Shown one piece after another: positions 1,954 through 31,106 of a DNA stretch of 35,443 nucleotides; the first letter of the stretch is position 1; each line of letters opens with the position of its first letter. This DNA is from a virus: IMG/VR virus record IMGVR_UViG_3300028840_004191, positions 1 to 35,443 of that record; one strand, given 5' to 3'. Under the pieces are notes generated by a model. That model worked only from the letters and a program-made list of their open reading frames with translations, was not told where the DNA came from and made no database searches. The position numbers and the translations under genes were made by a program.

Positions 1954-2115
1954 ATGGTTGTGGAAACAATAGCCAAAAACGAAGACTACAACGAAACCAC
2001 CATCATAAGAATCACAATATACAACTGGAAACGACTATCAACACTAAAAGAGCCGGGAGACAGTTTCAACACAGTTGTACAGAGACTCCTAGACGAAAAG
2101 GAGAAGCAAAAATGA
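1954..2115 (+). CDS. Ribbon-helix-helix-like small regulator
   Basis: A 53-residue protein. A short beta-strand-like stretch TIIRITIYNW is followed by two predicted helices around RLSTLKEPGDSFNTVVQRLL, the layout of MetJ/Arc-type RHH proteins such as VapB-like antitoxins and archaeal virus repressors. It is first in the long operon, directly after a perfect palindrome at 1935-1951, and probably represses its own operon. Its TGA overlaps the next ATG. No VapC-like PIN partner follows, so an antitoxin role is less likely. It is too short for many gene finders. Confidence 0.65.
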   Translation: MVVETIAKNEDYNETTIIRITIYNWKRLSTLKEPGDSFNTVVQRLLDEKEKQK

Positions 2116-2354
2116 CGGTCTACCAGGAAGGCTATATATGCGCTGTCTGTGGGCCCGTCACAGCTAAACTCTGGTGGAGCAACGAGGAAAACGATCTCGT
2201 AGCCTCATGCACCCGATGCGGAGCAATCATACAACGAATCATACCCGTACCATTCTCCACACCGCTTGCGGGTGGAGGCAAAAGGCCGGGGCAGCCCGCA
2301 TGTATACCTAACTCCGGCGAAGCCCCGGCCCCACCCCAGGAGGACACCGCATGA
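2112..2354 (+). CDS. Zinc-ribbon protein
   Basis: An 80-residue protein with paired cysteines, CAVC near residue 10 and CTRC near residue 36, spaced as in a zinc ribbon (Cys4), followed by a proline- and glycine-rich tail. Such miniproteins usually bind nucleic acid or protein, but no specific function is recognised. Its ATG overlaps the upstream TGA, and its end overlaps the next start by four bases, so translation is probably coupled. Confidence 0.6.
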   Translation: MTVYQEGYICAVCGPVTAKLWWSNEENDLVASCTRCGAIIQRIIPVPFSTPLAGGGKRPGQPACIPNSGEAPAPPQEDTA

Positions 2355-2563
2355 ACCCGGAGATAAACAAGAAGTTCCGTGAGATCCAAAGCAAATGCAA
2401 CAACAAGACACCCAAACACTACCCTGGTTACTGTCACCGAGCCATCCTCGACGTACTCAGCCTCCTATCCCTCATAACCGAAGAACTAGCAGACAAGGAA
2501 AACGCCATTGAAGACCTTGCCCTAGTAGACGACTTCATTAAAATGGAGGACCTGCTAAGTTGA
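2351..2563 (+). CDS. Small alpha-helical hypothetical protein
   Basis: A 70-residue protein, largely helical and acidic toward the C terminus (ITEELADKENAIEDLALVDDF). No family recognised. It starts at an ATGA overlap with the previous gene and ends in a TTGA overlap with the next. The coding strand here is rich in A and C at third positions, unlike the region after 5 kb. Confidence 0.55.
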   Translation: MNPEINKKFREIQSKCNNKTPKHYPGYCHRAILDVLSLLSLITEELADKENAIEDLALVDDFIKMEDLLS

Positions 2564-2760
2564 GCTTCACAGAGAAAATCGACGTACTCGACCTCCTCAT
2601 ACAGATACTCAACGAACACGAAAAAAAACTAGACCTGATCACCAGCCGCCTCGAAGCAATACTGGAACAAGCTGAACCGGCTCTGCCCTCTGAGGAGCTG
2701 GAGGAGGACCAGGGCACCCCCAGCCCTGAGTCCTCCAAATACCTGGAGGACCACAGATGA
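2560..2760 (+). CDS. Small coiled-coil hypothetical protein (TTG start)
   Basis: A 66-residue protein with a heptad-like N-terminal helix (VLDLLIQILNEHEKKLDLI), then an acidic, serine/proline-rich tail. TTG at 2560 is chosen because it overlaps the previous TGA by four bases, the rule throughout this operon. It may oligomerise or be an adaptor; function unknown. Confidence 0.5.
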   Translation: MSFTEKIDVLDLLIQILNEHEKKLDLITSRLEAILEQAEPALPSEELEEDQGTPSPESSKYLEDHR

Positions 2761-3452
2761 GCCCCAAAGAACAGTCCCTCGTTGCCGAAGGGCGGGAGGG
2801 CCAGGGCAAGCCCAGCCTTGAGCCCTCCACAGTTATTCTCAAAAATGAGTCTAACTCCCCCAATTATAATGAACTGATACAGTTATTCTTATTATTAATA
2901 ATAAGAAAAACTGGCTATGTCGCGCCGAGGCAAGTAGAGCAGTTTCTCTCAAAATTAAAAAAAACTGGTTTACTAAACAGTCAAACTCTAGCTATCTATT
3001 ATTTCTTTTACACAGAACGAGCAGGCACAATAACATATCTCACTGAGGAACTAGACATCGATGATTCAACAGCCTATAGAGCAATAAAACCACTCATCAA
3101 ATACAAGTTAATCAAGAAACTTGGTAAAATCAAGCCAGCACCAGGAGGCGGCCCTAAACCTACCATATACGGTGTACCTGATGCACTCCCAGAGGACATA
3201 GCAAACGCACAACATAGAGAGATGAAGAGAACCACACCAGGCTACGAGTTTGCCCGTAAGATGAGTCAGTTAATTCTCGACGAATACCTACCTCATAGAC
3301 TAAACGGCCCAACTGAGATCAAGTATATAGAAGTTGCACGATTCATAGGCAGAAACTACCCCTATGGCGGCCCAGGTGGCTTCGATAAAAGTGGAGTAAT
3401 CGATGTCACATGCAAACACCTTCACGAACAGGGAATCAAGGTCTGGAGGTAG
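2757..3452 (+). CDS. Winged-helix DNA-binding protein
   Basis: A 231-residue protein and the largest product in the first third of this operon. Residues about 65-125 look like a winged helix: IYYFFYTERAGTITYLTEEL, then DIDDSTAYRAIKPLIKYKLI as the recognition-helix region, then a glycine-rich wing. The C-terminal 90 residues contain a second globular segment around YIEVARFIGRNYPYGGPGG. It may be the element's main transcription factor or a replication-initiation factor; the sequence does not decide. It starts at an ATGA overlap. Confidence 0.6.
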   Translation: MSPKEQSLVAEGREGQGKPSLEPSTVILKNESNSPNYNELIQLFLLLIIRKTGYVAPRQVEQFLSKLKKTGLLNSQTLAIYYFFYTERAGTITYLTEELDIDDSTAYRAIKPLIKYKLIKKLGKIKPAPGGGPKPTIYGVPDALPEDIANAQHREMKRTTPGYEFARKMSQLILDEYLPHRLNGPTEIKYIEVARFIGRNYPYGGPGGFDKSGVIDVTCKHLHEQGIKVWR

Positions 3453-3456
3453 CCCA

Positions 3457-3723
3457 ATGTCTCAGCTTACTCTCACCGGCAAGAAACGGGCCATACAGGA
3501 GCCCTTCAACAAGCTAACTCCGGCTGAGGTTAAGATCTGGAACTTCATGAACAGCATGGGCAAAGGCATGACCCACACCCACATCAAACAAGCCCTACGA
3601 AGCACAGGCATCCAAGTATTCGACAACAAACTCCGCAGCATATACCAAAAAGGCTGGGCAAAGAAATGGAAAGGCCCCGACGGCATCTATCTATGGTACG
3701 CGATCCCGAAGGAGGCTGTCTAG
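3457..3723 (+). CDS. Small winged-helix-like protein
   Basis: An 88-residue protein. NKLTPAEVKIWNFMNSMGK followed by THIKQALRSTG and LRSIYQKGWAKKWK reads like a compact winged helix. ATG at 3457 is preferred over in-frame upstream codons because it follows GGAGGT at suitable spacing just after the previous stop. It pairs with the larger winged-helix gene immediately upstream. Confidence 0.5.
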   Translation: MSQLTLTGKKRAIQEPFNKLTPAEVKIWNFMNSMGKGMTHTHIKQALRSTGIQVFDNKLRSIYQKGWAKKWKGPDGIYLWYAIPKEAV

Positions 3724-3857
3724 TGCCGCGTGTAAGCAACATCGACAAGGCATTGAAGGCATGGAAGCCTAACCCCGTTGAGCCGCCCATCCCGGTGAAG
3801 GCTGAGAACCTGCACAGAGCAGCGCGAAGGTATCTGCTAAAGGAGGCTACGATGTGA
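3723..3857 (+). CDS. 44-residue hypothetical protein (GTG start)
   Basis: A short basic, proline-containing protein (WKPNPVEPPIPVKAENLHRAARR). GTG at 3723 shares one base with the upstream TAG and follows an AAGGAGG site. No family recognised. Confidence 0.45.
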   Translation: MPRVSNIDKALKAWKPNPVEPPIPVKAENLHRAARRYLLKEATM

Positions 3858-4042
3858 CTGGCTTCTGTGTCCCGGTGAAGACAATAAAATGCATGAAATG
3901 CGGGCACACTCTTCTCTACACGGGAAGAGGCCGCCACATATGCACCAACCCAGACTGCCCTGTAGATCACATGATGGTAAACCGACACGGCAGAGTCTAC
4001 AAGACAGTAATGGTGTCAACACCAATGGAGGCAGAGAAATGA
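3854..4042 (+). CDS. Zinc-ribbon miniprotein (GTG start)
   Basis: A 62-residue protein with CMKC and CTNPDC pairs separated by a short beta-hairpin-like stretch (LLYTGRGRHI), a classic zinc ribbon. GTG at 3854 overlaps the previous TGA by four bases and its end overlaps the next ATG. Function unknown; one of about seventeen such miniproteins in this operon. Confidence 0.6.
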   Translation: MTGFCVPVKTIKCMKCGHTLLYTGRGRHICTNPDCPVDHMMVNRHGRVYKTVMVSTPMEAEK

Positions 4043-4341
4043 AAGCCACAAACTACGAGAAACTACTAGCCTATATAGCCGCAGGCTACGTTATGCTAAT
4101 CTTCGCATACGTATTAGCTGAAACCTACTACGCCCCACCCGAATGGGACGTATTCACAGTCTTCGACGTATCTTACCGCAGCAACAACCAGACCACCATC
4201 ATACTAACCTACGGAACAGGAAAACACGTACTCCGAGGCTACTACACACTACAGCTAGACCACACATACTACCTAGAATACCGACCAGGCATACGCTTCA
4301 CACCAAGCACCGTACTACAGCTAACGGAGGTCACAAATTGA
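4039..4341 (+). CDS. Single-pass membrane protein with external domain
   Basis: A 100-residue protein. Residues about 8-28 (LLAYIAAGYVMLIFAYVLA) form a membrane helix or uncleaved signal; the remainder is tyrosine- and threonine-rich with alternating beta-like strands (TTIILTYGTGKHVLRGYYT) and probably faces outside. ATG at 4039 gives the 4-base overlap; an in-frame upstream reading is not credible. Confidence 0.55.
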   Translation: MKATNYEKLLAYIAAGYVMLIFAYVLAETYYAPPEWDVFTVFDVSYRSNNQTTIILTYGTGKHVLRGYYTLQLDHTYYLEYRPGIRFTPSTVLQLTEVTN

Positions 4342-4454
4342 AGTGCTGCAAAAAAGCCGGAGTCATGAACCCACACCAAGACACCAGAAAAATCAACCCC
4401 ATCTACTGCGTCAACTGCGGCACATCATTCAACCAAAGGAGACACAAAAAATGA
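4338..4454 (+). CDS. 38-residue zinc-knuckle peptide (TTG start)
   Basis: A CC pair near the N terminus and CVNC near residue 26 could bind one zinc ion. TTG at 4338 overlaps the preceding TGA (TTGA) and the stop overlaps the next ATG, so both ends fit the coupling pattern. Very short; supported mainly by overlap geometry and cysteine pattern. Confidence 0.45.
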   Translation: MKCCKKAGVMNPHQDTRKINPIYCVNCGTSFNQRRHKK

Positions 4455-4579
4455 AATGGCTAAAAACGGCCCTGAAATACGCTGGAGTCGGCACCATACT
4501 CGCACTCCTAGCCCTACTCATAAGCCTCGTCTGCGGCGTGGCAAGCATATACTGTAAGCTAAACGGGTGGTGGACATGA
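4451..4579 (+). CDS. 42-residue single-span membrane peptide
   Basis: A basic N terminus (MKWLKTALKY) precedes one long hydrophobic segment (VGTILALLALLISLVCGVA). ATG at 4451 overlaps the previous TGA. Could be a small membrane regulator or virion membrane peptide; no family recognised. Confidence 0.5.
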   Translation: MKWLKTALKYAGVGTILALLALLISLVCGVASIYCKLNGWWT

Positions 4580-4950
4580 CCCAGACATGGAGTGAAATGG
4601 TGCTAGAAGTCGAGACAGGCATACGCCTCACATCGATGCAGCGCAAGATGGCGGCCCTCGGCATCAAAGTGCCCCTAGGGAAACACAGCAAACCTGGTTG
4701 GGGCGGGGCTCTACCCTTCTACGCCTTCAACTGCAAGCTACACGGAGTAGTAATAAACTATCCCCAGGGATATGCCAAGATATTGCGGTGCCCTGAATGC
4801 GATAGAGAAGAGTCCCAAAGAGAGGCAACAAAACGGACTGATCCTAAGATGAATGTCTTAGCTGATGAGCCGGAAACGGCGAAATCTGTCCGACCCACAC
4901 AGGTGAAAAAAAGTGAGCGAGAGATTCGAGAAAGTAAGAAAGTACGTTGA
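4576..4950 (+). CDS. Hypothetical protein with CPEC motif and charged tail
   Basis: A 124-residue protein. The central part has a KLHG...LRCPEC pattern like an incomplete zinc knuckle; the last 45 residues are highly charged (Lys, Arg, Glu) and probably disordered or helical. ATG at 4576 overlaps the previous stop; GTG at 4567 is a weaker alternative. It overlaps the following gene by 38 bases. Confidence 0.5.
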   Translation: MTQTWSEMVLEVETGIRLTSMQRKMAALGIKVPLGKHSKPGWGGALPFYAFNCKLHGVVINYPQGYAKILRCPECDREESQREATKRTDPKMNVLADEPETAKSVRPTQVKKSEREIRESKKVR

Positions 4951-5134
4951 GTCCACGGGAGTAACCCACTCATACAAGAAGTATGTCCGAGAGGCCCATT
5001 TCCACTTCAGAAATCTACCCAAGGGCGACCTCAAGGACACCCTGGCCCTCATGGGCTTGACCCCGCACCCTGAGAACCCTCATTGTATGGTTCTACTAGG
5101 GTTAACCGATAATACATCTGAAGGAGGGAGATAG
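4913..5134 (+). CDS. 73-residue hypothetical protein (GTG start)
   Basis: No domain recognised. The basic N-terminal helix (FEKVRKYVES) and HFHFRNLPKGDLKDTLALMGL suggest a small helical protein. It begins inside the charged tail of the preceding gene and ends in a GGAGGG site that serves the adjoining ATG at 5135. Confidence 0.45.
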   Translation: MSERFEKVRKYVESTGVTHSYKKYVREAHFHFRNLPKGDLKDTLALMGLTPHPENPHCMVLLGLTDNTSEGGR

Positions 5135-5365
5135 ATGAACCTATTATGTAGACTAGGGCTCCATGATTGGAAATACGCTTCTAAGGTTCCTCCTTATGAG
5201 GAAATGCCTGAATCGCTCAGACAGGCCCCATGCCACTTCAAGGCTACTTGTAGGCGGTGTTCGGCTGTTAAATATGAGGGTCAGTTCGGTGAGATGGATT
5301 TTCGCAGCGTGGTTTTACCATCCAGAGACACATCTGAAACACGGATCAAGGAGGGAGATCAATGA
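5135..5365 (+). CDS. Zinc-binding miniprotein
   Basis: A 76-residue protein starting LLCRLGLHDWKY, with a later CRRC. A leading CxxGxHxW plus CxxC is common among small uncharacterised virus proteins and probably makes one zinc site. The start directly abuts the previous stop and is preceded by GGAGGGAGAT. Confidence 0.55.
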   Translation: MNLLCRLGLHDWKYASKVPPYEEMPESLRQAPCHFKATCRRCSAVKYEGQFGEMDFRSVVLPSRDTSETRIKEGDQ

Positions 5366-5565
5366 CAGACATATTACTGTATGGTATTCTAGTTATGTAT
5401 CTTATTGGTTTCGTTCTAGGTTTTGGAACGGCCCTTGATCTTATTGAGCAATCAAAAGAAGTTGGCTATGAATACACATCAAAATGGGCGTTAGTCAAGT
5501 ATTGGTTAGATCCCAGAAACCGCAAATCCAGAATTACCCATGAAACGCGGAGGGAGATAAAATAA
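5362..5565 (+). CDS. Membrane-anchored small protein
   Basis: A 67-residue protein with an N-terminal membrane helix (LLYGILVMYLIGFVLGFGTAL) and a basic cytoplasmic tail (DPRNRKSRITHETRREIK). ATG overlaps the preceding TGA and follows GGAGGGAGATCA. Its own tail encodes GGAGGGAGATAAA, the ribosome site for the next gene. Confidence 0.5.
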   Translation: MTDILLYGILVMYLIGFVLGFGTALDLIEQSKEVGYEYTSKWALVKYWLDPRNRKSRITHETRREIK

Positions 5566-6017
5566 GTCACTCAACCAATGAATTAAGAGGGGCTGTAATC
5601 CTAGGATTAGTCTTAGGGTCCGCCATAGGTATTTTTACTTATGACTATTTCTATGTTTACGGTCTACGACTTGACAATGATCTTTATCTTTCTAAGATTG
5701 AATCTAGAGATAATAGAATACAGGCATTAATTGAACGTGCTCACAAACTAGAGAAAGAGGTAGCAGAACTAAGAGACACAAATTATTATGACTTAATGAG
5801 AATCGGCAAGTTTGATGATAAATATGTGGTATATCTAGGGAACACTGCCATAGTAGGTAAGAACATAACAATACTTCATATAGCAGATGCAAACCACGAA
5901 GCCTTGAACTGGGCTTTAGCACATGCGGCTCCAGATTCATCAATATTCCTAGCTGATCATGAAATCAAGGGACAAATAGATTTTGGCTTGGCTGAATGGA
6001 GCGTGACGATAAAATGA
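5562..6017 (+). CDS. Membrane-anchored coiled-coil protein with apparent ATA start
   Basis: Coding runs well upstream of the first ATG (5796): residues about 10-30 are a membrane helix (AVILGLVLGSAIGIFTYDYF), about 45-75 a coiled coil (AHKLEKEVAELRDT), and the rest a small globular domain. No ATG, GTG or TTG exists between the in-frame stop at 5541 and the membrane helix. ATA at 5562 overlaps the previous TAA as ATAA, exactly like the ATGA junctions, and follows GGAGG at normal spacing. Starting at 5796 would discard the membrane segment. About 151 residues; function unknown. Confidence 0.5.
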   Translation: MSHSTNELRGAVILGLVLGSAIGIFTYDYFYVYGLRLDNDLYLSKIESRDNRIQALIERAHKLEKEVAELRDTNYYDLMRIGKFDDKYVVYLGNTAIVGKNITILHIADANHEALNWALAHAAPDSSIFLADHEIKGQIDFGLAEWSVTIK

Positions 6018-6055
6018 CCATTATCATGCATGCCAAGAGGACGGAGGAAACATAA
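6014..6055 (+). CDS. Micro-ORF linker, 13 codons
   Basis: MTIIMHAKRTEET. The ATG overlaps the preceding TGA and the TAA shares a base with the next ATG, filling the intergenic gap completely. It contains AAGAGGACGGAGG, the ribosome site for the following gene. Probably a translational-coupling device; a peptide function is possible but unproven. Confidence 0.4.
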   Translation: MTIIMHAKRTEET

Positions 6056-6309
6056 TGAGCTGCACTAGATACGAAGTCTATGATCCGTATGATTATGGTG
6101 TTGAACACCCAACCCCATGCAAATGTCCCCTCTGTGGCGGCTTCCTGAAATGGGTAGATATGAAGCCTATCTGTAACAAATGCAACACTGAGTTAATGAT
6201 CTTCCCTGACATCGACGAAGAAACAGGTGAAGAGAGTGATTACGCAGGCAAAATATGCCCTGTTTCCATTAAACCCAACGATTCACGGTCCCAGGAGGAA
6301 ACACAATGA
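6055..6309 (+). CDS. Zinc-ribbon protein
   Basis: An 84-residue protein. CKCPLCGGF and ICNKC form a Cys4 ribbon with a WVDMKP hairpin between, followed by an acidic tail. An additional Cys lies near KICPV. It probably binds nucleic acid or another protein. The 3' end overlaps the next start by four bases. Confidence 0.6.
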   Translation: MSCTRYEVYDPYDYGVEHPTPCKCPLCGGFLKWVDMKPICNKCNTELMIFPDIDEETGEESDYAGKICPVSIKPNDSRSQEETQ

Positions 6310-6494
6310 AATATGAAGTAAACGATAATGAAATTACTTTCAAGGTAAAAACGGATCAACCCGGGAAATGGGCTATTGTTGAAGCAATAAGACAAACTCT
6401 TGATTTCTGGAGAACTGTACGGCATCACGCCACTTTCAAAAGAAAAGCCTTCGAGACAGTCATAATAAAAATTGAGAGGGTGGATTTTCTATGA
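6306..6494 (+). CDS. 62-residue hypothetical protein
   Basis: Short beta-strand-like start (YEVNDNEITFKVKTD), then a helix with aromatic and basic residues (AIRQTLDFWRTVRHHATFKRK). No family recognised. Start fixed by ATGA overlap. Confidence 0.45.
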   Translation: MKYEVNDNEITFKVKTDQPGKWAIVEAIRQTLDFWRTVRHHATFKRKAFETVIIKIERVDFL

Positions 6495-6526
6495 TTTCCA
6501 TTTACTACACGGAGGTACGGAAATGA
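6491..6526 (+). CDS. Micro-ORF linker, 11 codons
   Basis: MISIYYTEVRK. It starts in an ATGA overlap with the previous stop and ends in an ATGA overlap with the next start, and carries CGGAGGT for the next gene. Same geometry as the micro-ORFs at 6014, 6687, 8461 and 8784. Confidence 0.4.
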   Translation: MISIYYTEVRK

Positions 6527-6690
6527 AGTGTATATATTATCCGTGGATAGAGTGTAACAAAGACGATCCTCCTGTACTTGATGAGTGTTGGGAGTGCCCA
6601 GAGGCTTTTGTTTTATTTGACAACAAGACAATAGCCTTGGCTATATTGTTCCTAATCTTAGGGGCAGTTTTGGGGTGGTTTGCGGTTTGA
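6523..6690 (+). CDS. Cys-rich membrane miniprotein
   Basis: A 55-residue protein. The N-terminal half has four cysteines (MKCIYYPWIEC and ECWEC), the C-terminal half is a membrane helix (TIALAILFLILGAVLGWF). Orientation and function unknown; the cysteines could bind metal or, if external, form disulfides. Confidence 0.5.
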   Translation: MKCIYYPWIECNKDDPPVLDECWECPEAFVLFDNKTIALAILFLILGAVLGWFAV

Positions 6691-6725
6691 CCATAGATAA
6701 TCAGGAAAAGAGGCCCACACAATGA
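6687..6725 (+). CDS. Micro-ORF linker, 12 codons (TTG start)
   Basis: MTIDNQEKRPTQ. TTG overlaps the previous TGA as TTGA, and the TGA overlaps the next ATG. GGAAAAGAGG inside it is the likely ribosome site for the next gene. It resembles the micro-ORFs at 6014 and 8461 in the MTI start and the KR pair at codons 8-9. Confidence 0.4.
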   Translation: MTIDNQEKRPTQ

Positions 6726-7303
6726 CAGCGAAAAAACTATGCAAGAACTTAGGATACTCATGTGATTACATTGAGTGGGGAGAAGACGATGAACTTTATT
6801 GCACAGATCCAAAGACACCGTTAATCTGCGAAGTCCCAAAGAAGCCATGTAAATACCCAGACATCTGGTGTCCACATACAAACTACTATCTAAACGATGA
6901 AGAGGAGGAAAACCCCCTCTGTGAAGCAATCCGAGAAGGGGTAACTGAGTGTCCCTTCCAAGTTTACGAGCCAGATGGTATCACTTGGCCTTTCCAAGAA
7001 ACGCTCCTAAAAAGCCCATACTGGAATCTTAAAGGGTTCCAATACTTCAAAGACAGGGTGCTTGTCGATGAGAAAGTAATAGTGGCAATCCAGAACTGGG
7101 CGGCTGACTGCACCGAGCCCACCATGCCGAACTATAAAGACACAGAATCAATGTTTAACGCCCTAGACCTTATCTACAAACTCCTTGAAGAACTACAAAA
7201 AGGACCACTTACCATAGAAAACAAGGATCTCCATAACTTCGGGGTTGAGGTTGTCGAGCTAAATCAGATTACATCCATTAATAACGGTGGCGAAAGGACA
7301 TGA
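6722..7303 (+). CDS. Cysteine-rich hypothetical protein
   Basis: A 193-residue protein. Its first 80 residues hold about ten cysteines in irregular spacing (LCKNLGYSC, YCTDP, LICEV, CKYPDIWC, LCEAI, ECPF), suggesting a zinc cluster or disulfide-rich domain; the second half is helical and cysteine-poor. Many small archaeal and phage proteins have such Cys-rich starts, but no named family is recognised. One of the larger products of the long operon. Confidence 0.5.
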   Translation: MTAKKLCKNLGYSCDYIEWGEDDELYCTDPKTPLICEVPKKPCKYPDIWCPHTNYYLNDEEEENPLCEAIREGVTECPFQVYEPDGITWPFQETLLKSPYWNLKGFQYFKDRVLVDEKVIVAIQNWAADCTEPTMPNYKDTESMFNALDLIYKLLEELQKGPLTIENKDLHNFGVEVVELNQITSINNGGERT

Positions 7304-7461
7304 CCGAGTTTAAATGGCCTGAAAACTGTAAGGACTGCGCCTACTACCATGACGATGTACCTGGGTGGGCTACCTTCTGTGATCTATTCCACGGGAACGG
7401 GATTGACCCTAACTGTGAACACAAGAAACCCGTAAAATGCGCCGGAGGACGGAAACAATGA
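7300..7461 (+). CDS. 53-residue Cys-rich miniprotein
   Basis: Cysteines at CKDC, TFCDLF, NCEH and KCAGG could form one zinc site. Start and stop both use 4-base overlaps. The tail GGRKQ is encoded by the GGAGGACGG ribosome site of the next gene. Confidence 0.5.
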   Translation: MTEFKWPENCKDCAYYHDDVPGWATFCDLFHGNGIDPNCEHKKPVKCAGGRKQ

Positions 7462-7580
7462 CGTTCTGGGGATACCTTGTACTCCTTTTCATCATTGGGT
7501 GTATGATTGAAGACTATCAGCATACAAAGCATGAGTTAGAAATGGAACGAATAAGAGAATCTAGGAGGGATACTAAGTGA
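7458..7580 (+). CDS. 40-residue single-span membrane peptide
   Basis: An N-terminal hydrophobic helix (FWGYLVLLFIIGCMI) is followed by a charged helix (ELEMERIRESRRDTK). Overlaps both neighbours by four bases. Function unknown. Confidence 0.45.
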   Translation: MTFWGYLVLLFIIGCMIEDYQHTKHELEMERIRESRRDTK

Positions 7581-7993
7581 TCTTCTCTGAGGGCGATCAT
7601 GTTGAGCAGATCAAGGCAGGGACAAAGACCCAGACGCGGCGAACCTCAGACAGATATGAGGTAGGCAAATTCTATGCGGTGCAGCCATGCCGAACTTGCA
7701 AGGGCATACCCGACGGCAAGATCCTTATCACCGCTAAACGCTTAGAACAGAAATCAGACTGGCCTCCCGGGTGGAGAATCCTACCCATCGAAGCTAAAGC
7801 AGAGGGCGGCTACACACCCAAGGCATACGAGGAACTTTACGAGGAAATGCACCCTGGCTGGACGGAACGATGGTCCTACCTTTTCCAGTATTACCCCACG
7901 AAGGCAATCGAGTTGATAGAAAACGGTGAACTCGATGGAGCTATGGCTGTCATGATGTCCAGAGCCTCCCAGCAAGTACGGAGTGAGAAATGA
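7577..7993 (+). CDS. ASCH/PUA-like domain protein (GTG start)
   Basis: A 138-residue protein. The opening (FSEGDHVEQIKAGTKTQTRR followed by YEVGKFYAVQP) matches the signature of ASCH-domain proteins, small PUA-like beta-barrels thought to bind RNA or modified nucleotides and common in phages. A CRTC pair sits within the barrel region. The tail has a HPGWTERW segment also seen as HPGWSERQ in the protein at 11308. An RNA-binding or nucleotide-handling role is inferred from the family. GTG overlaps the upstream TGA. Confidence 0.7.
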   Translation: MIFSEGDHVEQIKAGTKTQTRRTSDRYEVGKFYAVQPCRTCKGIPDGKILITAKRLEQKSDWPPGWRILPIEAKAEGGYTPKAYEELYEEMHPGWTERWSYLFQYYPTKAIELIENGELDGAMAVMMSRASQQVRSEK

Positions 7994-8172
7994 TGTTCGT
8001 ACCACATAAGCCTAGATCTAAGATACAGATGATCTTAGAGAAACACGAAATGAACAATATGACTAGGGGCCAGTTAATTAAAAAACTGATTCAGAATGGT
8101 TGGTCTAGCGAATCAGCCGAAACTCTAGCAGATTCAATATTATCCCTTTTCTCTAAAGGTGAACGGACATGA
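7990..8172 (+). CDS. 60-residue helical hypothetical protein
   Basis: Predominantly helical: TRGQLIKKLIQNGW followed by SAETLADSILSLF, like a helix-hairpin-helix or SAP-like pair, but too weak to assign. The KGERT tail is dictated by the next gene's ribosome site. Confidence 0.45.
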   Translation: MMFVPHKPRSKIQMILEKHEMNNMTRGQLIKKLIQNGWSSESAETLADSILSLFSKGERT

Positions 8173-8324
8173 AACATGAAAGAGATCAACCTGAATGCTG
8201 TGATGATTGTCCCTTAGCAGAGGCCTGTGCGAATAAGGGTCCATGTGGAGCATTTGAACAGTTTTACGGTGTAGACGCAATCAAGTGGTCCATTGAATCA
8301 GATAGTAAGAGGAAACAAAAATGA
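8169..8324 (+). CDS. 51-residue Cys-rich miniprotein
   Basis: Six cysteines in the first 30 residues (ECCDDC, EACANKGPC) suggest a zinc cluster, reminiscent of short ferredoxin-like or Zn-knuckle peptides but without the CxxCxxC of a 4Fe-4S site. Four-base overlaps at both ends. Confidence 0.5.
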   Translation: MKHERDQPECCDDCPLAEACANKGPCGAFEQFYGVDAIKWSIESDSKRKQK

Positions 8325-8464
8325 GAGATGAAAATAAGTTAATGGCTCTTGTTGAAATATTCTTGCTATCTTCGTGTGATGATCTATGGGAGGAATTAAC
8401 CTCAGAAGAACGCAGACAAGTATTCCCTAAGTTAATCACAGAATTTGTGGAGGCCAACTATTGA
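8321..8464 (+). CDS. 47-residue acidic helical peptide
   Basis: Acidic amphipathic helices (MALVEIFLLSSCDDLWEEL and FPKLITEFVEA). No family recognised. Supported by overlap geometry on both sides. Confidence 0.4.
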   Translation: MRDENKLMALVEIFLLSSCDDLWEELTSEERRQVFPKLITEFVEANY

Positions 8465-8496
8465 CCATTTTCAAACACAGGAAGCGGTCAACATGA
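8461..8496 (+). CDS. Micro-ORF linker, 11 codons (TTG start)
   Basis: MTIFKHRKRST. TTG overlaps the upstream TGA as TTGA, and its TGA overlaps the ATG at 8493. GGAAGCGG within it is the likely ribosome site for the next gene. Same length and geometry as the micro-ORF at 6491. Confidence 0.4.
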   Translation: MTIFKHRKRST

Positions 8497-8639
8497 AAGA
8501 AACCCCAGATTATTGCCCATACGAAAAATGCCTTGAAATTTATAGAGATACTATTGATCCAACTGTCTTCAACTGTAAGAAATGTTTGGGTGATGACTTT
8601 CCATCCCAACTAGAAACCAAAAAGAGGACTGAGCCATGA
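8493..8639 (+). CDS. Zinc-binding miniprotein
   Basis: A 48-residue protein with CPYEKC and CKKC pairs, a plausible single zinc site. ATG at 8493 fits the coupling pattern; a TTG at 8445 would extend it by 16 residues but overlap the previous gene. Confidence 0.5.
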   Translation: MKETPDYCPYEKCLEIYRDTIDPTVFNCKKCLGDDFPSQLETKKRTEP

Positions 8640-8794
8640 CTGTGACTTGGAAAAAGGATTATCTCAAGGATAGGGTTAAGGAATTACAAAGTCGAGAATT
8701 TTTAGATAATGATCTTCACACAGCGTTAGAGTTAATCCAAGAATTATTAGGTCACATGATTGAGGAGCATGGATTATTCAAAGATGACCACTGA
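8636..8794 (+). CDS. 52-residue helical peptide
   Basis: Charged helices (YLKDRVKELQSREFL and LHTALELIQELLGHMI), possibly a coiled coil. Starts at an ATGA overlap. Its last codons overlap the micro-ORF at 8784. Confidence 0.4.
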   Translation: MTVTWKKDYLKDRVKELQSREFLDNDLHTALELIQELLGHMIEEHGLFKDDH

Positions 8795-8819
8795 AAAGCA
8801 AACAAAACGGACAGGATGA
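8784..8819 (+). CDS. Micro-ORF linker, 11 codons, before the C5 methyltransferase
   Basis: MTTEKQTKRTG. It begins inside the end of the preceding gene and stops in an ATGA overlap with the methyltransferase start at 8816. KR at codons 8-9 matches the micro-ORFs at 6687 and 8461. It fixes 8816 rather than 8822 as the likely methyltransferase start. Confidence 0.4.
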   Translation: MTTEKQTKRTG

Positions 8820-9892
8820 TGATGGATGAGATCAGATTCATCGACCTCTTCAGCGGAATCGGAGGCTTCAGGCGAGGCCTTGAGCTCAGCGGAGGATACC
8901 GATGTGTCTGGTCATGCGACAAAGACAAGTACGCCAACCAAGTCTACACCTCGAGGTTCGGGGAAGAGAACCATCATTCAGGCGACATTAGGAAAGTCAA
9001 GGCCACGAGTATCCCCGATCACGACATTCTCTGTGCTGGGTTCCCTTGCCAGGCTTTCAGTGTTGCCGGAAAAAGGGGCGGGTTTGAAGACACTCGTGGA
9101 ACGCTTTTCTTCGAGATTGCCCGCATTGCGCGGGCTAAACGACCCACGCTATTACTCTTGGAGAATGTCAGAGGGTTACTCAGCCACGATGAGGGACAAA
9201 CCATCGCAACTATCTTGGAAATCCTGGTGGGTATCGGATATAGATGCGAGGGGCAAGTTCTCAATTCTAAGTGGTTCGGTGTACCCCAAAACCGAGAACG
9301 GGTGTTCATTGTCGGACATCTTAGAGGAAGAGATACCCGGCCAATATTTCCTATCACAGAAATTAATGAAAACGCTTACCAAGGAAATCAATGGCAAAAG
9401 GGCCAAGTTAGTAAATCCCTCAGAGCTGAATCTAATTACAATATGCGAGGAACCTACATCATCGACCCCTTCAACAAAGCGGAGAGAAAAGACATGATGG
9501 CTGGGGCGTTAAAGACGAACCAAGGAAGCCCAACAAGTACCGGAACGGCCTTAGCTATTTTGACCAGTAATCGTGGTGGCAACATCAAAGACAGAGTTAG
9601 ATCCGTAGATACGACCCCCGCCTGGTGTCTTGGGGGTAGTGAGACGCAGATACTTGGATATGCTAATGCTGTTACTGATGGCTGGCTCATGGACACAAGC
9701 CACCACGATAAACCGATGTGCGAGTACCGGATTAGACGTCTAACACCAGTAGAGTGTGAGAGGCTTCAAGGCTTCCCCGATGGGTGGACCGAGGGCATAA
9801 GCGATACCCAGCGGTACAAGTGCCTCGGTAACGCGGTCACGGTGAATGTGATCAAGTTCCTTGGTGACCGACTCAAGGAGGCATTTAACTGA
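8816..9892 (+). CDS. DNA cytosine-5 methyltransferase
   Basis: A full-length 358-residue C5 methyltransferase, transferring methyl from SAM to cytosine in a short target. Conserved motifs are in canonical order: I, FIDLFSGIGGFRRG (8-21); IV, GFPCQAFSVAG with catalytic Cys78; VI, LLLENVRG (113-120); VIII, QNRERVFIVG (158-167); then a variable target-recognition region (about 185-300); IX, RRLTPVECERLQGFPDGW (307-324); X, CLGNAVTVNV (336-345). All catalytic residues are present. No restriction enzyme gene is adjacent, so it is probably an orphan methylase protecting the element's DNA from host restriction or marking it. The target cannot be read from sequence. Confidence 0.95.
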   Translation: MMMDEIRFIDLFSGIGGFRRGLELSGGYRCVWSCDKDKYANQVYTSRFGEENHHSGDIRKVKATSIPDHDILCAGFPCQAFSVAGKRGGFEDTRGTLFFEIARIARAKRPTLLLLENVRGLLSHDEGQTIATILEILVGIGYRCEGQVLNSKWFGVPQNRERVFIVGHLRGRDTRPIFPITEINENAYQGNQWQKGQVSKSLRAESNYNMRGTYIIDPFNKAERKDMMAGALKTNQGSPTSTGTALAILTSNRGGNIKDRVRSVDTTPAWCLGGSETQILGYANAVTDGWLMDTSHHDKPMCEYRIRRLTPVECERLQGFPDGWTEGISDTQRYKCLGNAVTVNVIKFLGDRLKEAFN

Positions 9893-9912
9893 AAATAGAA
9901 CGTGAATGGGCT

Positions 9913-10443
9913 ATGCCTAATAAAAACACCTTCCAGATTTCTCCAATTAAAGAACTTATTATGGAGGAAATGGTTAACGGCGTCGTTATTGACCCATTTG
10001 CGAATACCTCAAAAATTGCTAATATAACAAATGATATAGACCCACAATATAAAACCGATTATAATTTAGAGGCCCTGGATTTCCTCAAATTATTCGACAC
10101 TGAAACGGTGGATATGGGGCTACTCGATCCACCATATACACCTAGACAATTATCTGAGGTTTACAAGAAGCTAGGGAGATCCGTGAATATGGAAACCACC
10201 CAAATTAGTTACTGGTCCAACCTCAAAGATGAAATGTCCCGCGTGGTAAAACCCGAGGGCAAAGTTATTTCATGTGGATGGAATAGTGCTGGGATTGGGA
10301 AAAAAAGAGGCTTCAAGATAAAACGGATTCTCCTAGTTAATCATGGTTCCATGCACAATGATACAATCGTGGTGGTTGATGAGAAACTTCAATCAAGGTT
10401 GACCGCGTTTAGCAAATCAAAGAGGTCGTTGCATGAACAGTGA
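9913..10443 (+). CDS. DPPY-type DNA N-methyltransferase-like protein
   Basis: A 176-residue SAM-dependent methyltransferase of the N6-adenine/N4-cytosine type found in phages. DPPY at residues 72-75 (LLDPPYTPRQLSEVYKKLG) is the catalytic motif; VVIDPFANTSKIA (24-36) corresponds to the SAM-binding region. In this family an REWAMPNKNTFQI-type block precedes, and here KIEREWAMPNKNTF is in frame upstream of the ATG, reachable from a CTG at 9889 that overlaps the previous TGA and lies 7 bp after AAGGAGG. The true start may therefore be 9889. It is small for the group and lacks an obvious target-recognition domain. Confidence 0.75.
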   Translation: MPNKNTFQISPIKELIMEEMVNGVVIDPFANTSKIANITNDIDPQYKTDYNLEALDFLKLFDTETVDMGLLDPPYTPRQLSEVYKKLGRSVNMETTQISYWSNLKDEMSRVVKPEGKVISCGWNSAGIGKKRGFKIKRILLVNHGSMHNDTIVVVDEKLQSRLTAFSKSKRSLHEQ

Positions 10444-10717
10444 AAAACTAAGGTATTGGGCTAGTCTAATTTACATTCCAGATGATCCACGGCTTAGGAA
10501 GCCGAAAGGCAGCAAACACCAGGAGAAGATAAGGGAGATACTGACCCTGGTGAAAGAGGCTCGCGAAAACCCCACGGTGGATGTTTATGAACGCCTCCGT
10601 TCTGTGCGTCCTATATACTGCCCCGATCATGTGCCCGGGTTCGTGAATTACTGTATGTATCTTCAGTATCAGCTAACCCAGATCGAGGGCTTTGTCCATA
10701 AAGATGAGGGTGCTTAG
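10433..10717 (+). CDS. 94-residue hypothetical protein
   Basis: Basic N-terminal half (RKPKGSKHQEKIREILTLVKE), two cysteines in YCPDHVPGFVNYC. No family recognised. It overlaps the methyltransferase by 11 bases. Confidence 0.5.
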   Translation: MNSEKLRYWASLIYIPDDPRLRKPKGSKHQEKIREILTLVKEARENPTVDVYERLRSVRPIYCPDHVPGFVNYCMYLQYQLTQIEGFVHKDEGA

Positions 10718-10718
10718 G

Positions 10719-11024
10719 ATGGATCGAGAATACGAAGAAACAATGAAGTGGCTTGAGGGTTTGGGCTTAGTCAACCCACCAGTAAAATACCCAGTTAAAG
10801 ACCCGATCCCAGATGGTTCAATCCATTGTATAACCCCAGGCTGCTATAGTGAAAAAGAATACGCTAAAACATTCGGGGAAGCCTACGCAGAGGCATATCC
10901 CTTATTCCGTTACAAGTGGAGAGATGGGCATCTCTGGTTTGAGTGCGTTCAATGCGGGGCTGAGTTCAGGCCAAGTAAAACCTTGAATGGCGTCCATTTA
11001 AACGGAGGCGTTAAGGATGCCTAA
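10719..11024 (+). CDS. Zinc-knuckle hypothetical protein
   Basis: A 101-residue protein with CITPGC and, later, CVQC, which could bind zinc, separated by an aromatic-rich segment (YAEAYPLFRYKWRDGHLWFE). ATG at 10719 follows the previous stop; ATG 10704 or GTG 10710 are alternatives. It overlaps the next gene by 8 bases. Confidence 0.5.
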   Translation: MDREYEETMKWLEGLGLVNPPVKYPVKDPIPDGSIHCITPGCYSEKEYAKTFGEAYAEAYPLFRYKWRDGHLWFECVQCGAEFRPSKTLNGVHLNGGVKDA

Positions 11025-11148
11025 AGAATGTCCAAGATGTAAGAGCCGCACATTGACCAAGGCAAAAGGGACCCCTGCCCCTGGACAGAAACTATGGGTT
11101 TGCACTCATTGTGGATTCAAGGCCATCCGTAAAGAGGAGAGCAAATGA
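11017..11148 (+). CDS. 43-residue zinc ribbon
   Basis: CPRC at residues 5-8 and CTHC near residue 31 with a hairpin between: a minimal Cys4 zinc ribbon with the knuckle CxxCGF. Start ATG at 11017 overlaps the end of the upstream gene. Confidence 0.6.
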   Translation: MPKECPRCKSRTLTKAKGTPAPGQKLWVCTHCGFKAIRKEESK

Positions 11149-11149
11149 G

Positions 11150-11311
11150 ATGACTGAAAAAATGAAGAAAAAGGCGGGACCGCCGACATGTCCTATATGT
11201 GGCTCGACAAAAGAAGCATGGACTAGGAAGTTCCCCGCAACAAATGGACATAAAGGATTGTTGTGGATTTGCCCTAATTATTGTGAACTCTATAGGAAGG
11301 ATGCTGAATGA
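11150..11311 (+). CDS. Zinc-ribbon miniprotein, paralogue of 12521-12709
   Basis: A 53-residue protein: CPIC and CPNYC flank EAWTRKFPATNGHKGLLWI, a zinc-ribbon core. The protein at 12521 has the same layout (MxEKMK, AGPPxCPxCGS, EAWTRKFP, GHxGLxWxCP), with well over half of residues identical, so the two arose by duplication within the operon. ATG at 11150 is preferred over an upstream in-frame codon. Function unknown. Confidence 0.65.
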   Translation: MTEKMKKKAGPPTCPICGSTKEAWTRKFPATNGHKGLLWICPNYCELYRKDAE

Positions 11312-11772
11312 TCATTCCTCTTTCCACCGTTATCTATGATGAAAGGGCGAGAGATGGTACTTGGTGCATGGCACCTTATCCGAACCACCCCAAGGGCTGC
11401 CCTAACTTTCCCGAGTGCTGTGAGTCAAGACCAGACTTTAAGGAATTTGAGGGATATGACTGGTTCGCAGTTATAGCGGATTTTGACCTTAAAGCCCACG
11501 CTGAGAAACTGAAAGAGAAGCATCCAGGTTGGTCGGAGAGACAGGCTCGCTGTGTCCTCTACTGGCAGAATAGCATTAGAAAGAAGCTGCGTGAAAAGGC
11601 CCAAGGAATTACGTACCCTCTCATGGGCGATATTCTGCTGGATATCCCCGAGGCTTGTGGGGTTAATCTATTCGCTACAATGGCAAAACACGGCATTTAT
11701 CTGAAAACTAATCCTGATTTGGTTAAAAAAATCATGTTAGTTGGTAAATTCCGTAAAGAGGAGAGTGCTTAG
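11308..11772 (+). CDS. Cys-rich putative metal-binding protein
   Basis: A 154-residue protein. WCMAPYPNHPKGCPNFPECC near residue 20-38 is a compact metal-site pattern also met in uncharacterised virus and archaeal proteins; no reaction can be assigned. A middle helix HPGWSERQARCVLYWQNSIR resembles HPGWTERWSYLFQY of the ASCH protein at 7577, perhaps a shared segment. Start overlaps the previous stop by four bases. Confidence 0.55.
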   Translation: MIIPLSTVIYDERARDGTWCMAPYPNHPKGCPNFPECCESRPDFKEFEGYDWFAVIADFDLKAHAEKLKEKHPGWSERQARCVLYWQNSIRKKLREKAQGITYPLMGDILLDIPEACGVNLFATMAKHGIYLKTNPDLVKKIMLVGKFRKEESA

Positions 11773-11773
11773 G

Positions 11774-12187
11774 ATGGTGCCTAACTCAATCAAGAAAGCC
11801 ATACACACGGTATCAGAACAGATATTTGATGTCTGGTGGGGTTGGTATTATAATTACTTCAAGCACGCCCCAAGATACATCTATGAAAGAGAAGGTGATG
11901 AATGGATGCTTGAACACTGGGAGGAAAATAACTATGATCCAGTGTGTTTCCCCTTGCCCTTCAAGATAAATTGCTTAGGCTGTCGTGGGTGTGCAAGCGT
12001 ACCTAAACCACCTTTAAGACAATACGTGCATCCTGGACCATACAAAGTATTTTTTCATCCAATATTTCTTGACCAGTATGAAGATCTATTCGGTAAGCAA
12101 GCCACCTTTGAATTAGTTAATGACATGAGAATACAGCATCAAGAAATTGATTTAATCCATTTAAAGGGAGATAAAGAGGTAATATAA
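11774..12187 (+). CDS. 137-residue hypothetical protein
   Basis: Aromatic-rich (FDVWWGWYYNYFKHAPRYIY), with CLGCRGC near the middle, a tight three-cysteine cluster. No family recognised. ATG at 11774 follows the preceding TAG directly; its last base is the first base of the next ATG. Confidence 0.5.
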   Translation: MVPNSIKKAIHTVSEQIFDVWWGWYYNYFKHAPRYIYEREGDEWMLEHWEENNYDPVCFPLPFKINCLGCRGCASVPKPPLRQYVHPGPYKVFFHPIFLDQYEDLFGKQATFELVNDMRIQHQEIDLIHLKGDKEVI

Positions 12188-12528
12188 TGGTTCCACCACC
12201 AATCAGACTAGAAACAGCTTTACTACAAGTATTAAGTGCTTTTATAATGATTTATATTCTAACTACCTACTTTGATATATCTGGTTTTGGTCTTCTTATC
12301 GTCGGCATTCCATTAGCTAAGTTGCTTAGTTGGGGGCTTGAGCAAATTCATGATCTCCTACGATATAGACGATATGGGGAATATTATGTTGATAGAAGAA
12401 CGGGGGAAGTCTGGTGGCGTTCTTGGTTTGCTCCAAATTCTTGGGACGCAGGGGTTTCATGGGTAAGAACGTCTATCACCGAATCAGAAATAATTGACCG
12501 TTTAACGGAGGACACGAAGGATGAGTGA
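12187..12528 (+). CDS. Two-span membrane protein
   Basis: A 113-residue protein with hydrophobic segments at about 12-30 (LQVLSAFIMIYILTTYF) and 34-50 (GLLIVGIPLAKLLSW), then a soluble, tryptophan-rich C-terminal part (GEVWWRSWFAPNSWDAGVSW). Function unknown. Confidence 0.5.
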   Translation: MVPPPIRLETALLQVLSAFIMIYILTTYFDISGFGLLIVGIPLAKLLSWGLEQIHDLLRYRRYGEYYVDRRTGEVWWRSWFAPNSWDAGVSWVRTSITESEIIDRLTEDTKDE

Positions 12529-12709
12529 GAAGATGAAGCTAAGGGCAGGGCCACCTAAATGCCCTAAATGCGGTTCGATAAAAGAGGCATGGACTAGAAA
12601 GTTCCCCGTTACTAGCGGGCATCAAGGCTTGGTATGGTTGTGCCCTAAATTCTGCGAGATCCGTAAAACAAACGAGAATCAGAAACCGGAGGAGTCGAAG
12701 GATGCCTAG
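12521..12709 (+). CDS. Zinc-ribbon miniprotein, paralogue of 11150-11311
   Basis: A 62-residue protein with CPKC and CPKFC around the same EAWTRKFP core as the protein at 11150. The tail NENQKPEESKDA carries the GGAGG ribosome site of the next gene. The copies are separated by three unrelated genes. Confidence 0.65.
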   Translation: MSEKMKLRAGPPKCPKCGSIKEAWTRKFPVTSGHQGLVWLCPKFCEIRKTNENQKPEESKDA

Positions 12710-12884
12710 TACAAGGACAAGAAAAAGGCATAGAGTTAGCGAAAAGGAATCACCATTGTTAAGATGTTCTCGTAGAAGGAATTGTAGAAAAAGGAGGCGT
12801 ATTACAAACTTGATTTCAGGCAGATCCTACATAATCAGAGATGCAATCCATTTCACAAACGATAAAATGGAGAGGGAAAAATGA
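12702..12884 (+). CDS. 60-residue arginine-rich protein
   Basis: The first 35 residues are extremely basic (TRTRKRHRVSEKE, RRRNCRKRRRI), suggesting nucleic-acid binding; the C-terminal part is amphipathic. No family recognised. Confidence 0.45.
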   Translation: MPSTRTRKRHRVSEKESPLLRCSRRRNCRKRRRITNLISGRSYIIRDAIHFTNDKMEREK

Positions 12885-13150
12885 ACTTGAGAAAAACACA
12901 GTGGTTTAATCAGTTTTTATGTAGATTGTTTCAAGAACGTGCTTTACTCAAAGTAGAGCATAAGGATGGTTCTATAGAATGGGATAGTCTTAAACCCTAT
13001 GGTGGGCCAACCCTAGCCTTTTGGCGTGAAACTGGATTGGATTTCAGGTTTTTCCCTACTACTTGGGAGGGTAGAACTGGGTTTTATTATCTCAAGGAGA
13101 TGCCTTATGACATCCAGTTAGTAGCCACAAAGACGGAGGTGAAAGAATGA
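12881..13150 (+). CDS. 89-residue hypothetical protein
   Basis: Mixed alpha/beta with many aromatics (WFNQFLCRLFQERALLKVEH and LDFRFFPTTWEGRTGFYYL). No family recognised. Coupled to both neighbours by 4-base overlaps. Confidence 0.5.
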   Translation: MNLRKTQWFNQFLCRLFQERALLKVEHKDGSIEWDSLKPYGGPTLAFWRETGLDFRFFPTTWEGRTGFYYLKEMPYDIQLVATKTEVKE

Positions 13151-13374
13151 ATTATGTCTGTCATGGATGTGGTAAAAAACTTGATACTATGGAGATTAGA
13201 GTAATCGGCCCAGGCACCCTAAAATGGTGCAATGACTGTGTTGAAAACGGAACCCAAAAACGAATAGCACAAGAATTATGGGATAAATACGGTTCTAAAG
13301 GAACCCACGAATCTACCAAAAAGTATCTTGAACTTACTGATGACCAGAAGTTAAATAGGAAGACGGAAAAATGA
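13147..13374 (+). CDS. Zinc-finger protein
   Basis: A 75-residue protein: CHGCGKKL and WCNDCVENG form a Cys4 zinc site with a beta hairpin between (IRVIGPGTLK), like DksA/TraR- or LIM-type knuckles, followed by a charged helix. Function unknown. Confidence 0.6.
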   Translation: MNYVCHGCGKKLDTMEIRVIGPGTLKWCNDCVENGTQKRIAQELWDKYGSKGTHESTKKYLELTDDQKLNRKTEK

Positions 13375-13526
13375 AATTTTTAAGCTATTTATCTATGTAC
13401 TTCTCGTTCTGGTCCCTCTTCTTTGCTATTATATTTCCCGCGTTTGATAATTGGATGGGTAAACGAATAGAACGGAAAGTACATGAAGACTACCTAAAAC
13501 GGGATGGGAAGACGGATGAAATGTAG
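13371..13526 (+). CDS. 51-residue membrane peptide
   Basis: N-terminal hydrophobic, aromatic-rich span (YLSMYFSFWSLFFAIIFPAF) and a charged tail (KRIERKVHEDYLKRDGK). ATGA overlap with the previous gene; its end overlaps the next gene by 11 bases. Confidence 0.5.
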   Translation: MKFLSYLSMYFSFWSLFFAIIFPAFDNWMGKRIERKVHEDYLKRDGKTDEM

Positions 13527-13644
13527 CGAATGCCCTTGGAAAACGGTGCCGTTCTTTATCTGTAAGCACCAAACTATCAAAGACCGTCATGAGGTCATAG
13601 GCTGTAATATAGATGGGAAGCTGCCTGAAATTGACCGTGAATAG
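13516..13644 (+). CDS. 42-residue Cys-containing peptide
   Basis: CSEC, FICKH and GCNID supply four cysteines and a histidine for one possible zinc site. It ends inside the start region of the next gene. Confidence 0.45.
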   Translation: MKCSECPWKTVPFFICKHQTIKDRHEVIGCNIDGKLPEIDRE

Positions 13645-13747
13645 TATCAACCGAAGGATACCCATACCTAATTGGGTGCTTGGTATCATAATCATCTTAT
13701 ATGTTTTATTGGTGATTTTCTATCCTGGTGAACGCCTAATAGTATAA
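13637..13747 (+). CDS. 36-residue membrane peptide (GTG start), last gene of the long operon
   Basis: A basic start (NSINRRIPIPN) precedes a hydrophobic span (WVLGIIIILYVLLVIFY). GTG at 13637 lies within the end of the preceding gene. Its stop falls inside the palindrome at 13742-13757, so the operon ends where the next promoter begins. Confidence 0.45.
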   Translation: MNSINRRIPIPNWVLGIIIILYVLLVIFYPGERLIV

Positions 13748-18995: not shown

Positions 18996-19745
18996 TTAAT
19001 ACCTCTTATTTAATAGCTTTGGGAAGTATAGTCTCCAGTTAAGGTGACTATATCTGTCATCTACACCCTGTGTTGTGTGTCCTGTATAGATGTCTCTTTC
19101 CTCTTTGGTGAGTCCACATCGCTGTGCGAGTTCCATTGTTCGATAATGTCTCATGGATCCGTGTAGGGCTAATCTTCTATAGTGTCGTGGGACTTTGGTT
19201 TCATTCACTATGTTTGGTGGTGGCTTAATGAAGGGCTGTATTTCCTCTGGGACTTTATTTTTTATTGCTTGATATTTTTCTTGATCTATTTCTCTTATTG
19301 TGTATGGCTCGATTGGATAGATGTAGCCATCAAACGCGGTTTTACATCCATTATATAGATCTTGTCTAGTATAATGAAAAACGGGGTCATCCTTTTGGAA
19401 CCCTTGGAAGTAATTATAAACTGGTTTAGCGAAAGGCTCTAACTCTGGGGCTAAGGGTACACCTATATCTCTGGGTAATCCCCCGCGTTTGCTAGTTTTA
19501 ACATGTAATACCAAGGCTTCATGGCCTTCATGCTCTGCTATGCTAAAGTCATTCCCATTAGGACCGTTTGGCGTGGTTCCCTCATCGCTTGGGCAAACCT
19601 TTGTAACAATTTCACTGGCCCTACCAGCTATCAGATAACCATACATCCCACCAATTCGGAACCGTTTTTCAGGTATATCTTGAACAAGTTTGCGAACAGT
19701 CTTGTAATCTGGTAAAGTTCCATCATCTTTGTCTAAAAACTTCAC
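18996..19745 (-). CDS. Tyrosine recombinase (integrase)
   Basis: A 249-residue protein holding mainly the catalytic domain of a tyrosine recombinase. Visible catalytic features: Arg42 in LIAGRASEIV; Lys84/86 in HVKTSKRGG; an HGSMRHYRTMELAQR box with Arg199 and His200; GHTTQGVDDRYSHL with His223 and the likely nucleophile Tyr232. The usual N-terminal core-binding domain is short or missing, as in some archaeal virus integrases. It probably integrates or resolves the circular element. Transcribed from the palindromic promoter at 19768. Confidence 0.8.
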   Translation of the reverse strand: MKFLDKDDGTLPDYKTVRKLVQDIPEKRFRIGGMYGYLIAGRASEIVTKVCPSDEGTTPNGPNGNDFSIAEHEGHEALVLHVKTSKRGGLPRDIGVPLAPELEPFAKPVYNYFQGFQKDDPVFHYTRQDLYNGCKTAFDGYIYPIEPYTIREIDQEKYQAIKNKVPEEIQPFIKPPPNIVNETKVPRHYRRLALHGSMRHYRTMELAQRCGLTKEERDIYTGHTTQGVDDRYSHLNWRLYFPKLLNKRY

Positions 19746-30337: not shown

Positions 30338-30348
30338 AACCTTTGAGT

Positions 30349-31065: not shown

Positions 31066-31083
31066 AGATGATTAACCATTGGT

Positions 31084-31106
31084 TTTATACGTATAAATAT
31101 TTATAC
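31084..31106. promoter_or_regulatory. GTATAAA palindromes, site 7 (three half-sites, divergent promoter)
   Basis: TTTATAC-GTATAAA (31084-31097) is a perfect palindrome sharing its right arm with GTATAAATATTTATAC (31091-31106), so three half-sites lie in tandem. It separates the minus gene starting at 31065 from the plus operon at 31145. The same arrangement and flanks recur at 33685-33706. Confidence 0.7.

Follow-up and report, generated by a model that had tools for sequence, protein, structure and literature searches.

We found that every gap larger than 5 nt in a long operon of small viral genes was filled exactly by a micro-ORF of 11 to 13 codons. We consider it probable, though well short of assured, that these micro-ORFs serve as bridging cistrons within an operon whose genes are coupled throughout, that is, as body-less joints between genes that are kept open by selection. 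From the sequence we infer translation of the micro-ORFs, reinitiation, selection, and recombination as a route of gene exchange.

An operon bridged by micro-ORFs

The stretch of DNA analyzed (the window) was a virus record of 35,443 bases that had no tRNA genes and few recognisable genes. About 114 bases were identical at its two ends (1-114 and 35330-35443), within a repeated fibre-like gene that contains TWPSGGGVPYDQSLNTTDDV repeats; either the genome is circular and the fibre-like gene spans the ends, which is probable, or else assembly halted in the repeat. On the minus strand, 28499-34871 encoded methyltransferases as well as acetyltransferase-like, glycosyltransferase-like, and sulfatase-family proteins, possibly surface-modification cargo. 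The protein encoded at 18996-19745, 91% conserved, had no Pfam match and was named an integrase only from its tyrosine-recombinase pattern (R..HYR..TGHTT..Y), which suggests an integrating virus.

The operon (2112-13747, plus strand) comprised 43 small genes, which were chained by hand and for which junction distances were measured. A start codon placed on the preceding gene's stop was the near-universal pattern: 23 of the 42 junctions were overlaps of -4 nt, and the remainder ranged from -38 to +5 nt, except for five gaps of 21, 28, 28, 31, and 37 nt. Each of these five was filled exactly by a micro-ORF, leaving no junction above 5 nt in the operon without one:

6014-6055, plus strand: mu1, start ATG, product MTIIMHAKRTEET, 13 codons; ATGA overlap at its start, TAATG at its end
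6491-6526, plus strand: mu2, start ATG, product MISIYYTEVRK, 11 codons; ATGA at start and end
6687-6725, plus strand: mu3, start TTG, product MTIDNQEKRPTQ, 12 codons; TTGA at its start, ATGA at its end
8461-8496, plus strand: mu4, start TTG, product MTIFKHRKRST, 11 codons; TTGA at its start, ATGA at its end
8784-8819, plus strand: mu5, start ATG, product MTTEKQTKRTG, 11 codons; ATGA at its end

The first-pass annotation had described these micro-ORFs as bridges wherever neighbouring genes fail to overlap, and this held for every gap above 5 nt in the operon, as did the coordinates, frames, lengths (13, 11, 12, 11, and 11 codons), and both overlaps of all five. The stop and start arrangement of coupled genes, overlapping or within a few nt, was present at all five 3′ ends (TAATG or ATGA, shared with the next gene) and at the 5′ ends of mu1 to mu4, which start in the XTGA overlap with the upstream stop that had been reported for four of the five (ATGA or TTGA); mu5 instead begins within the upstream gene (8636-8794), overlapping it by 11 nt.

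A relative with the same arrangement

A relative, here G001 (IMGVR_UViG_3300028840_004389, 30.8 kb, in parts L016 and L017), was found via the Zot-like ATPase gene. The integrase and ATPase proteins were 84-91% identical between the two viruses, and the operons were syntenic, with anchors at 4913-5134 (L017:7949-8185) and 10433-10717 (L017:13708-14004), between which nearly all genes differed in G001. Searches of viral contigs, of genome contigs by ATPase and integrase, and of annotated phages by ATPase, integrase, and the 94-aa gene at 10433-10717, recovered no further true relative. A distant DNA search of phages gave short matches only, the annotated ones being methylases bar one hypothetical protein. 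Both operons were annotated by hand because our home-made gene caller misses many tiny operon genes; it was kept for unrelated contigs only. Four micro-ORFs were identified in G001:

L017:8866-8913: micro-ORF followed by a gene that starts with ATA (L017:8910)
L017:9750-9791: micro-ORF
L017:11418-11465: micro-ORF with a CTG start, ending ..VETKKRT*
L017:12577-12609: micro-ORF, counterpart of mu5

These occupied the only gaps of 25-44 nt in G001, and two of the four relied on less usual starts (the CTG at 11418 and the ATA of the gene that follows 8866-8913). A single L017 gap was unfilled; it spans 79 nt (13243-13321), resembles a promoter, and holds a TTAAATA motif before a MazE/AbrB-like gene. 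The host is probably an archaeon, as we judge from a TATA-like promoter in L017 together with the usage of AGA/AGG for 47% of arginine codons in the larger genes.

Uncommon starts were also seen elsewhere in the two viruses. Apparent ATA starts lay on the upstream stop at window 5562 and L017 8910 (ATAA, ATAG), with GGAGGG about 8 nt upstream, and without them long open frames with membrane segments have no start. Apparent CTG starts in CTGA overlaps, with strong ribosome sites, were located at window 9889 and L017 6154, a form of the relay with a rare start.

Conserved joints

We compared the 50 nt before each gene start between the window and G001. Seven exact matches of at least 13 nt were present in the variable region, against 0.7 expected, and six of these fell, in both viruses, within the 40 nt that precede a gene start, although such zones make up only 14% and 11% of the region. 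Five of the six were in the same order, the exception being mu4. The linker matches spanned 15-31 nt, were collinear except for mu4, and were strong where neither neighbour was clearly related; the flanking proteins showed no clear similarity between the two viruses beyond their tails. Given this clustering before starts, the mostly collinear order, and neighbours that are not clearly related, the conserved entity is the joint and not the adjoining genes. Several joints lay in the tails of ordinary genes:

6284-6309, plus strand: joint in a gene tail; 15-nt exact match of 6284-6298 with L017:8160-8174, the tail of gene 7949-8185
7273-7303, plus strand: joint in a gene tail (SINNGGERT*); shares 28 of 31 nt with L017:9496-9526, in the tail of an unrelated gene
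8149-8173, plus strand: joint in a gene tail (SKGERT*); identical over 22 nt (8152-8173) to L017:10568-10589, in the tail of a different gene
8605-8639, plus strand: joint in the tail (LETKKRTEP*) of the 48-aa gene 8493-8639; its counterpart is the micro-ORF L017:11418-11465, with 8611-8629 matching 11443-11461

Turning to the micro-ORFs themselves, mu1 (TIIMHAKRTEET) matched in frame L017:8430-8471, which is the tail (TINTHVKRTMETP) of gene L017:8304-8471, encoding a 55-aa membrane-type protein (linker alignment score 39). For mu5, the counterpart was the micro-ORF L017:12577-12609 (shared AAGCAAACAAAACGGACAG; 8796-8814 matching 12583-12601), and a gene with a match to C5-methylase followed in both viruses; the two micro-ORFs differ by one codon in length. 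A weak match connected mu4 to the micro-ORF L017:8866-8913 (shared ATTGACCATTTTC), and mu2 had no clear counterpart in G001. Frames agreed in four counterpart pairs, that of mu4 being weak; the first-pass annotation had proposed checking the conservation of frame in relatives, and in this one relative the counterparts had open frames.

The pairing of mu1 with the tail of L017:8304-8471, and of L017:11418-11465 with the tail of 8493-8639, indicates that a micro-ORF can stand in for a gene tail and a gene tail for a micro-ORF. A single class of conserved joint, which the first-pass annotation had missed, therefore appears to include both the micro-ORFs and the final ~10 codons of ordinary genes. 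The order of these joints is mostly shared by the two viruses, whereas the intervening genes are not the same. Homology stopped near joints in the comparison of the window with G001.

Two other observations concern gene ends. Window 2255-2354 and L017 5816-5945 were ~100% identical up to an edge lying exactly at an ATGA junction, while the upstream gene halves differed, a pattern that reads as a recent exchange bounded by a gene joint. Further, a second gene-tail family, (V/I)HL(K/N)G..(K)D(E/A), was found on different genes within and between the viruses (window 10717-12709; L017 13997-15208).

One alternative, which we judge unlikely, is that the micro-ORFs are passive remnants, the ends of deleted genes that are open since they are short and recent, with the bridging itself unselected. 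Their homology to gene tails would agree with this, as would the chance expectation under the existing contexts, which is a fit in roughly one gap in four. However, every gap fits in both viruses, bar the promoter-like one of 79 nt, and no decayed joints were seen; moreover, an SD-like site precedes each micro-ORF start, and mu5 and its counterpart are both open despite their difference in length.

Sequence signals in the micro-ORFs

All nine micro-ORF starts in the two viruses had an SD-like site upstream (duplex -5.6 to -11.2 kcal/mol; p = 9e-7 versus out-of-frame internal starts), and NTGACC opened five of the nine, in contrast to two of 73 genes. Four micro-ORFs of the window and one L017 gene tail shared a 27-nt register that opens with NNNACCAY and carries AARMGG at positions 22-27; in leave-one-out scoring, each member beat all but 0-2 of 66,361 positions. 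The spacing of the AARMGG motif was constant when measured from the micro-ORF start but varied from 5 to 14 nt when measured to the next start, which suggests shared descent and not only the need for an SD. The earlier suggestion that MT and KR follow from ATGAC and AAGAGG proved not quite enough, given the NTGACC bias and this spacing. The first-pass annotation had placed the next gene's ribosome site within every micro-ORF, which was overstated: this site was good in mu1 and mu2 (-9.5 and -10.9 kcal/mol) and moderate in mu3 and mu4 (-5.8 and -5.4), but weak in mu5 (-3.2). Local RNA structure that might hide the next start was also considered and set aside, being no different from that at other junctions.

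The shared register raises a further alternative, to our minds improbable, in which the NTGACCAY..AARMGG micro-ORFs are copies of an element that inserts at start codons and is expressed by coupling, as proposed for MIRUs (mycobacterial interspersed repetitive units). The leave-one-out specificity of the register would agree with this, as would the four occurrences of TGACCAT on the plus strand of the window, three of them at micro-ORF starts. Against it, the 13-nt interiors of the register were barely alike, apart from those of mu1 and its L017 counterpart, and the operon contained no exact repeat longer than 16 nt.

A functional role for the peptides, whether as small basic products in their own right or as ribosome-stalling leader peptides, is very hard to credit. 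The motif MT(I/T)-x4-KR, noted earlier in several of the micro-ORFs, was indeed present in four of the five (mu1, mu3, mu4, and mu5; not mu2, MISIYYTEVRK). Yet among the codon changes between mu1 and its counterpart (the TI..KRT..ET part) one was synonymous and most were nonsynonymous, the sequence varied freely among joints, and RNA structure was not unusual.

Chance expectation and control viruses

The first-pass annotation had also proposed simulating how often such spans arise by chance. In our simulation, real SD sequences were kept, gap bodies and frames were random, and contexts were drawn from non-operon genes, giving an exact fit per gap of 0.059 (strict) or 0.155 (relaxed). The window exceeded this expectation, with four of five gaps fitting strictly and five of five under the relaxed definition (binomial 6e-5 and 9e-5). 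For the window and G001 combined, the counts were 6/9 and 9/9, respectively, with independence incomplete since the joints are partly homologous. When contexts were left as they are, the simulated strict fit rose to the one gap in four mentioned above; single cases hence mean little, and it is the set that counts.

Among gaps of 15-50 nt in unrelated viruses, none of 62 fit strictly and two fit under the relaxed definition. These comprised 12 unrelated virus contigs, with genes called by the small program (strict 0/38, relaxed 2/38), and, as a second control, the published annotations of three archaeal viruses, HFTV1, psiM2, and HGTV-1 (0/24). That the gaps merely seem filled because starts were picked to fit is very improbable: non-canonical starts in G001 (ATA at L017:8910, CTG at L017:11418) were chosen partly for overlap, but none of the five window micro-ORFs depends on one, and the simulation and the 62 control gaps, with strict fits of 0-6%, largely refute this reading.

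Proposed mechanism

Under the bridging-cistron reading that we favour, a ribosome would end the upstream gene on NTGA and restart at once on the overlapping start codon, read 10-15 codons, stop at or abutting the next start, and restart there, the micro-ORF clearing and carrying much of the next gene's ribosome site. Micro-ORFs would be the body-less form of joints that elsewhere are the last ~10 codons of genes, so that the loss or gain of a gene body at a joint would leave behind or use up an in-frame micro-ORF. In a chain of ~40 genes with mostly -4 overlaps, any gap of 21-44 nt would interrupt the relay, and a micro-ORF closes each of these gaps; we propose that selection maintains the open frames of the micro-ORFs because coupling would be lost across an unfilled stretch of 20-45 nt. 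Published reporters bear on these distances: a gap of 22-23 nt reduced reinitiation to zero or near zero in Haloferax (PMC10666635), a gap of 38 nt cut it by 80-100% in E. coli (PMC10666635), and 13 of the 14 overlapping pairs tested proved to be strictly coupled (PMC6728339). Most genes after micro-ORFs carry their own SD and could initiate without coupling. An unbroken hand-over of ribosomes, as first proposed from the register of the overlaps, is what we infer from the gap sizes, their closure, the SD-like sites, and the open frames in the relative's counterparts, all of which fit.

More tentatively, and with considerable doubt, the virus family may keep translated joints as modules of 30-45 nt (start-stop overlap plus ribosome site) that would provide short homology for exchange and at the same time act as coupling cistrons, by which an operon of ~45 genes could swap, lose, and gain genes with the relay intact.

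Relation to known systems

Several known systems share parts of this arrangement. In termination-reinitiation at overlapping genes (Huber et al. 2019, 2023; PMC6728339, PMC10666635), overlaps of -4, -1, and -8 nt likewise dominate, and reinitiation is strongly distance-dependent, which is why gaps of 21-44 nt need filling; the coupled upstream 'gene' here, however, is an ORF of 10-15 codons between two real genes. MIRUs (PMC12548453) resemble the micro-ORFs as short intergenic ORFs coupled downstream at -4, a coupling that mu2 to mu5 show through their terminal ATGA and mu1 through TAATG. MIRUs differ in being mobile repeats, whereas here the interiors differ, copies interchange with gene tails, and in place of scattered repeat copies the operon has only the 27-nt register with its variable interior and lacks long exact repeats.

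Integron ORF-11 and attC short ORFs (PMC8876359) are likewise found where genes are exchanged: ORF-11 has 11 codons and an SD of its own, and it raises translation of the next cassette while amino-acid changes matter little (PMC8876359). There, the joints are site-specific recombination sites and ORF-11 stands before the first cassette, unlike the several micro-ORFs along this operon. Salmonella mgtQ (PMC8092293), also a short ORF flanked by two genes of an operon, enhances translation of the downstream one, but it starts 51 nt after mgtC and works via RNA structure and ribosome-destabilising residues. In bicistronic design elements (PMC5995908, PMC12548453), a short leader cistron precedes a second gene that is coupled to it; those elements are engineered, while the micro-ORFs here occur naturally, between the genes of an operon. 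Among phage boundary sequences and shared gene ends, genes 67 and 68 of Island3 are neighbours with common C-terminal ends (PMC3029335), and such shared ends were proposed to mediate gene gain or loss (PMC3029335). In keeping with phage boundary sequences, we found that corresponding joints carry short conserved sequences although the genes separating them differ; here, however, about seven joints are involved, mostly in the same order, and some are free micro-ORFs.

Full-text searches, which covered few subscription papers, turned up no description of a viral operon bridged by several ORFs of this kind, or of such ORFs interchanging with gene tails. If true, our reading would provide a natural case of bicistronic-type coupling cistrons used several times within one operon, would tie translational coupling to viral gene turnover, and would account for a class of ORFs of 10-15 codons that fall below usual gene-length cut-offs; the junctions would also be testable minimal couplers for expression design. 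Ribosome-delivering short ORFs and shared phage gene ends are already known, and what appears new here is their multiple occurrence in one viral operon and their interchange with gene tails.
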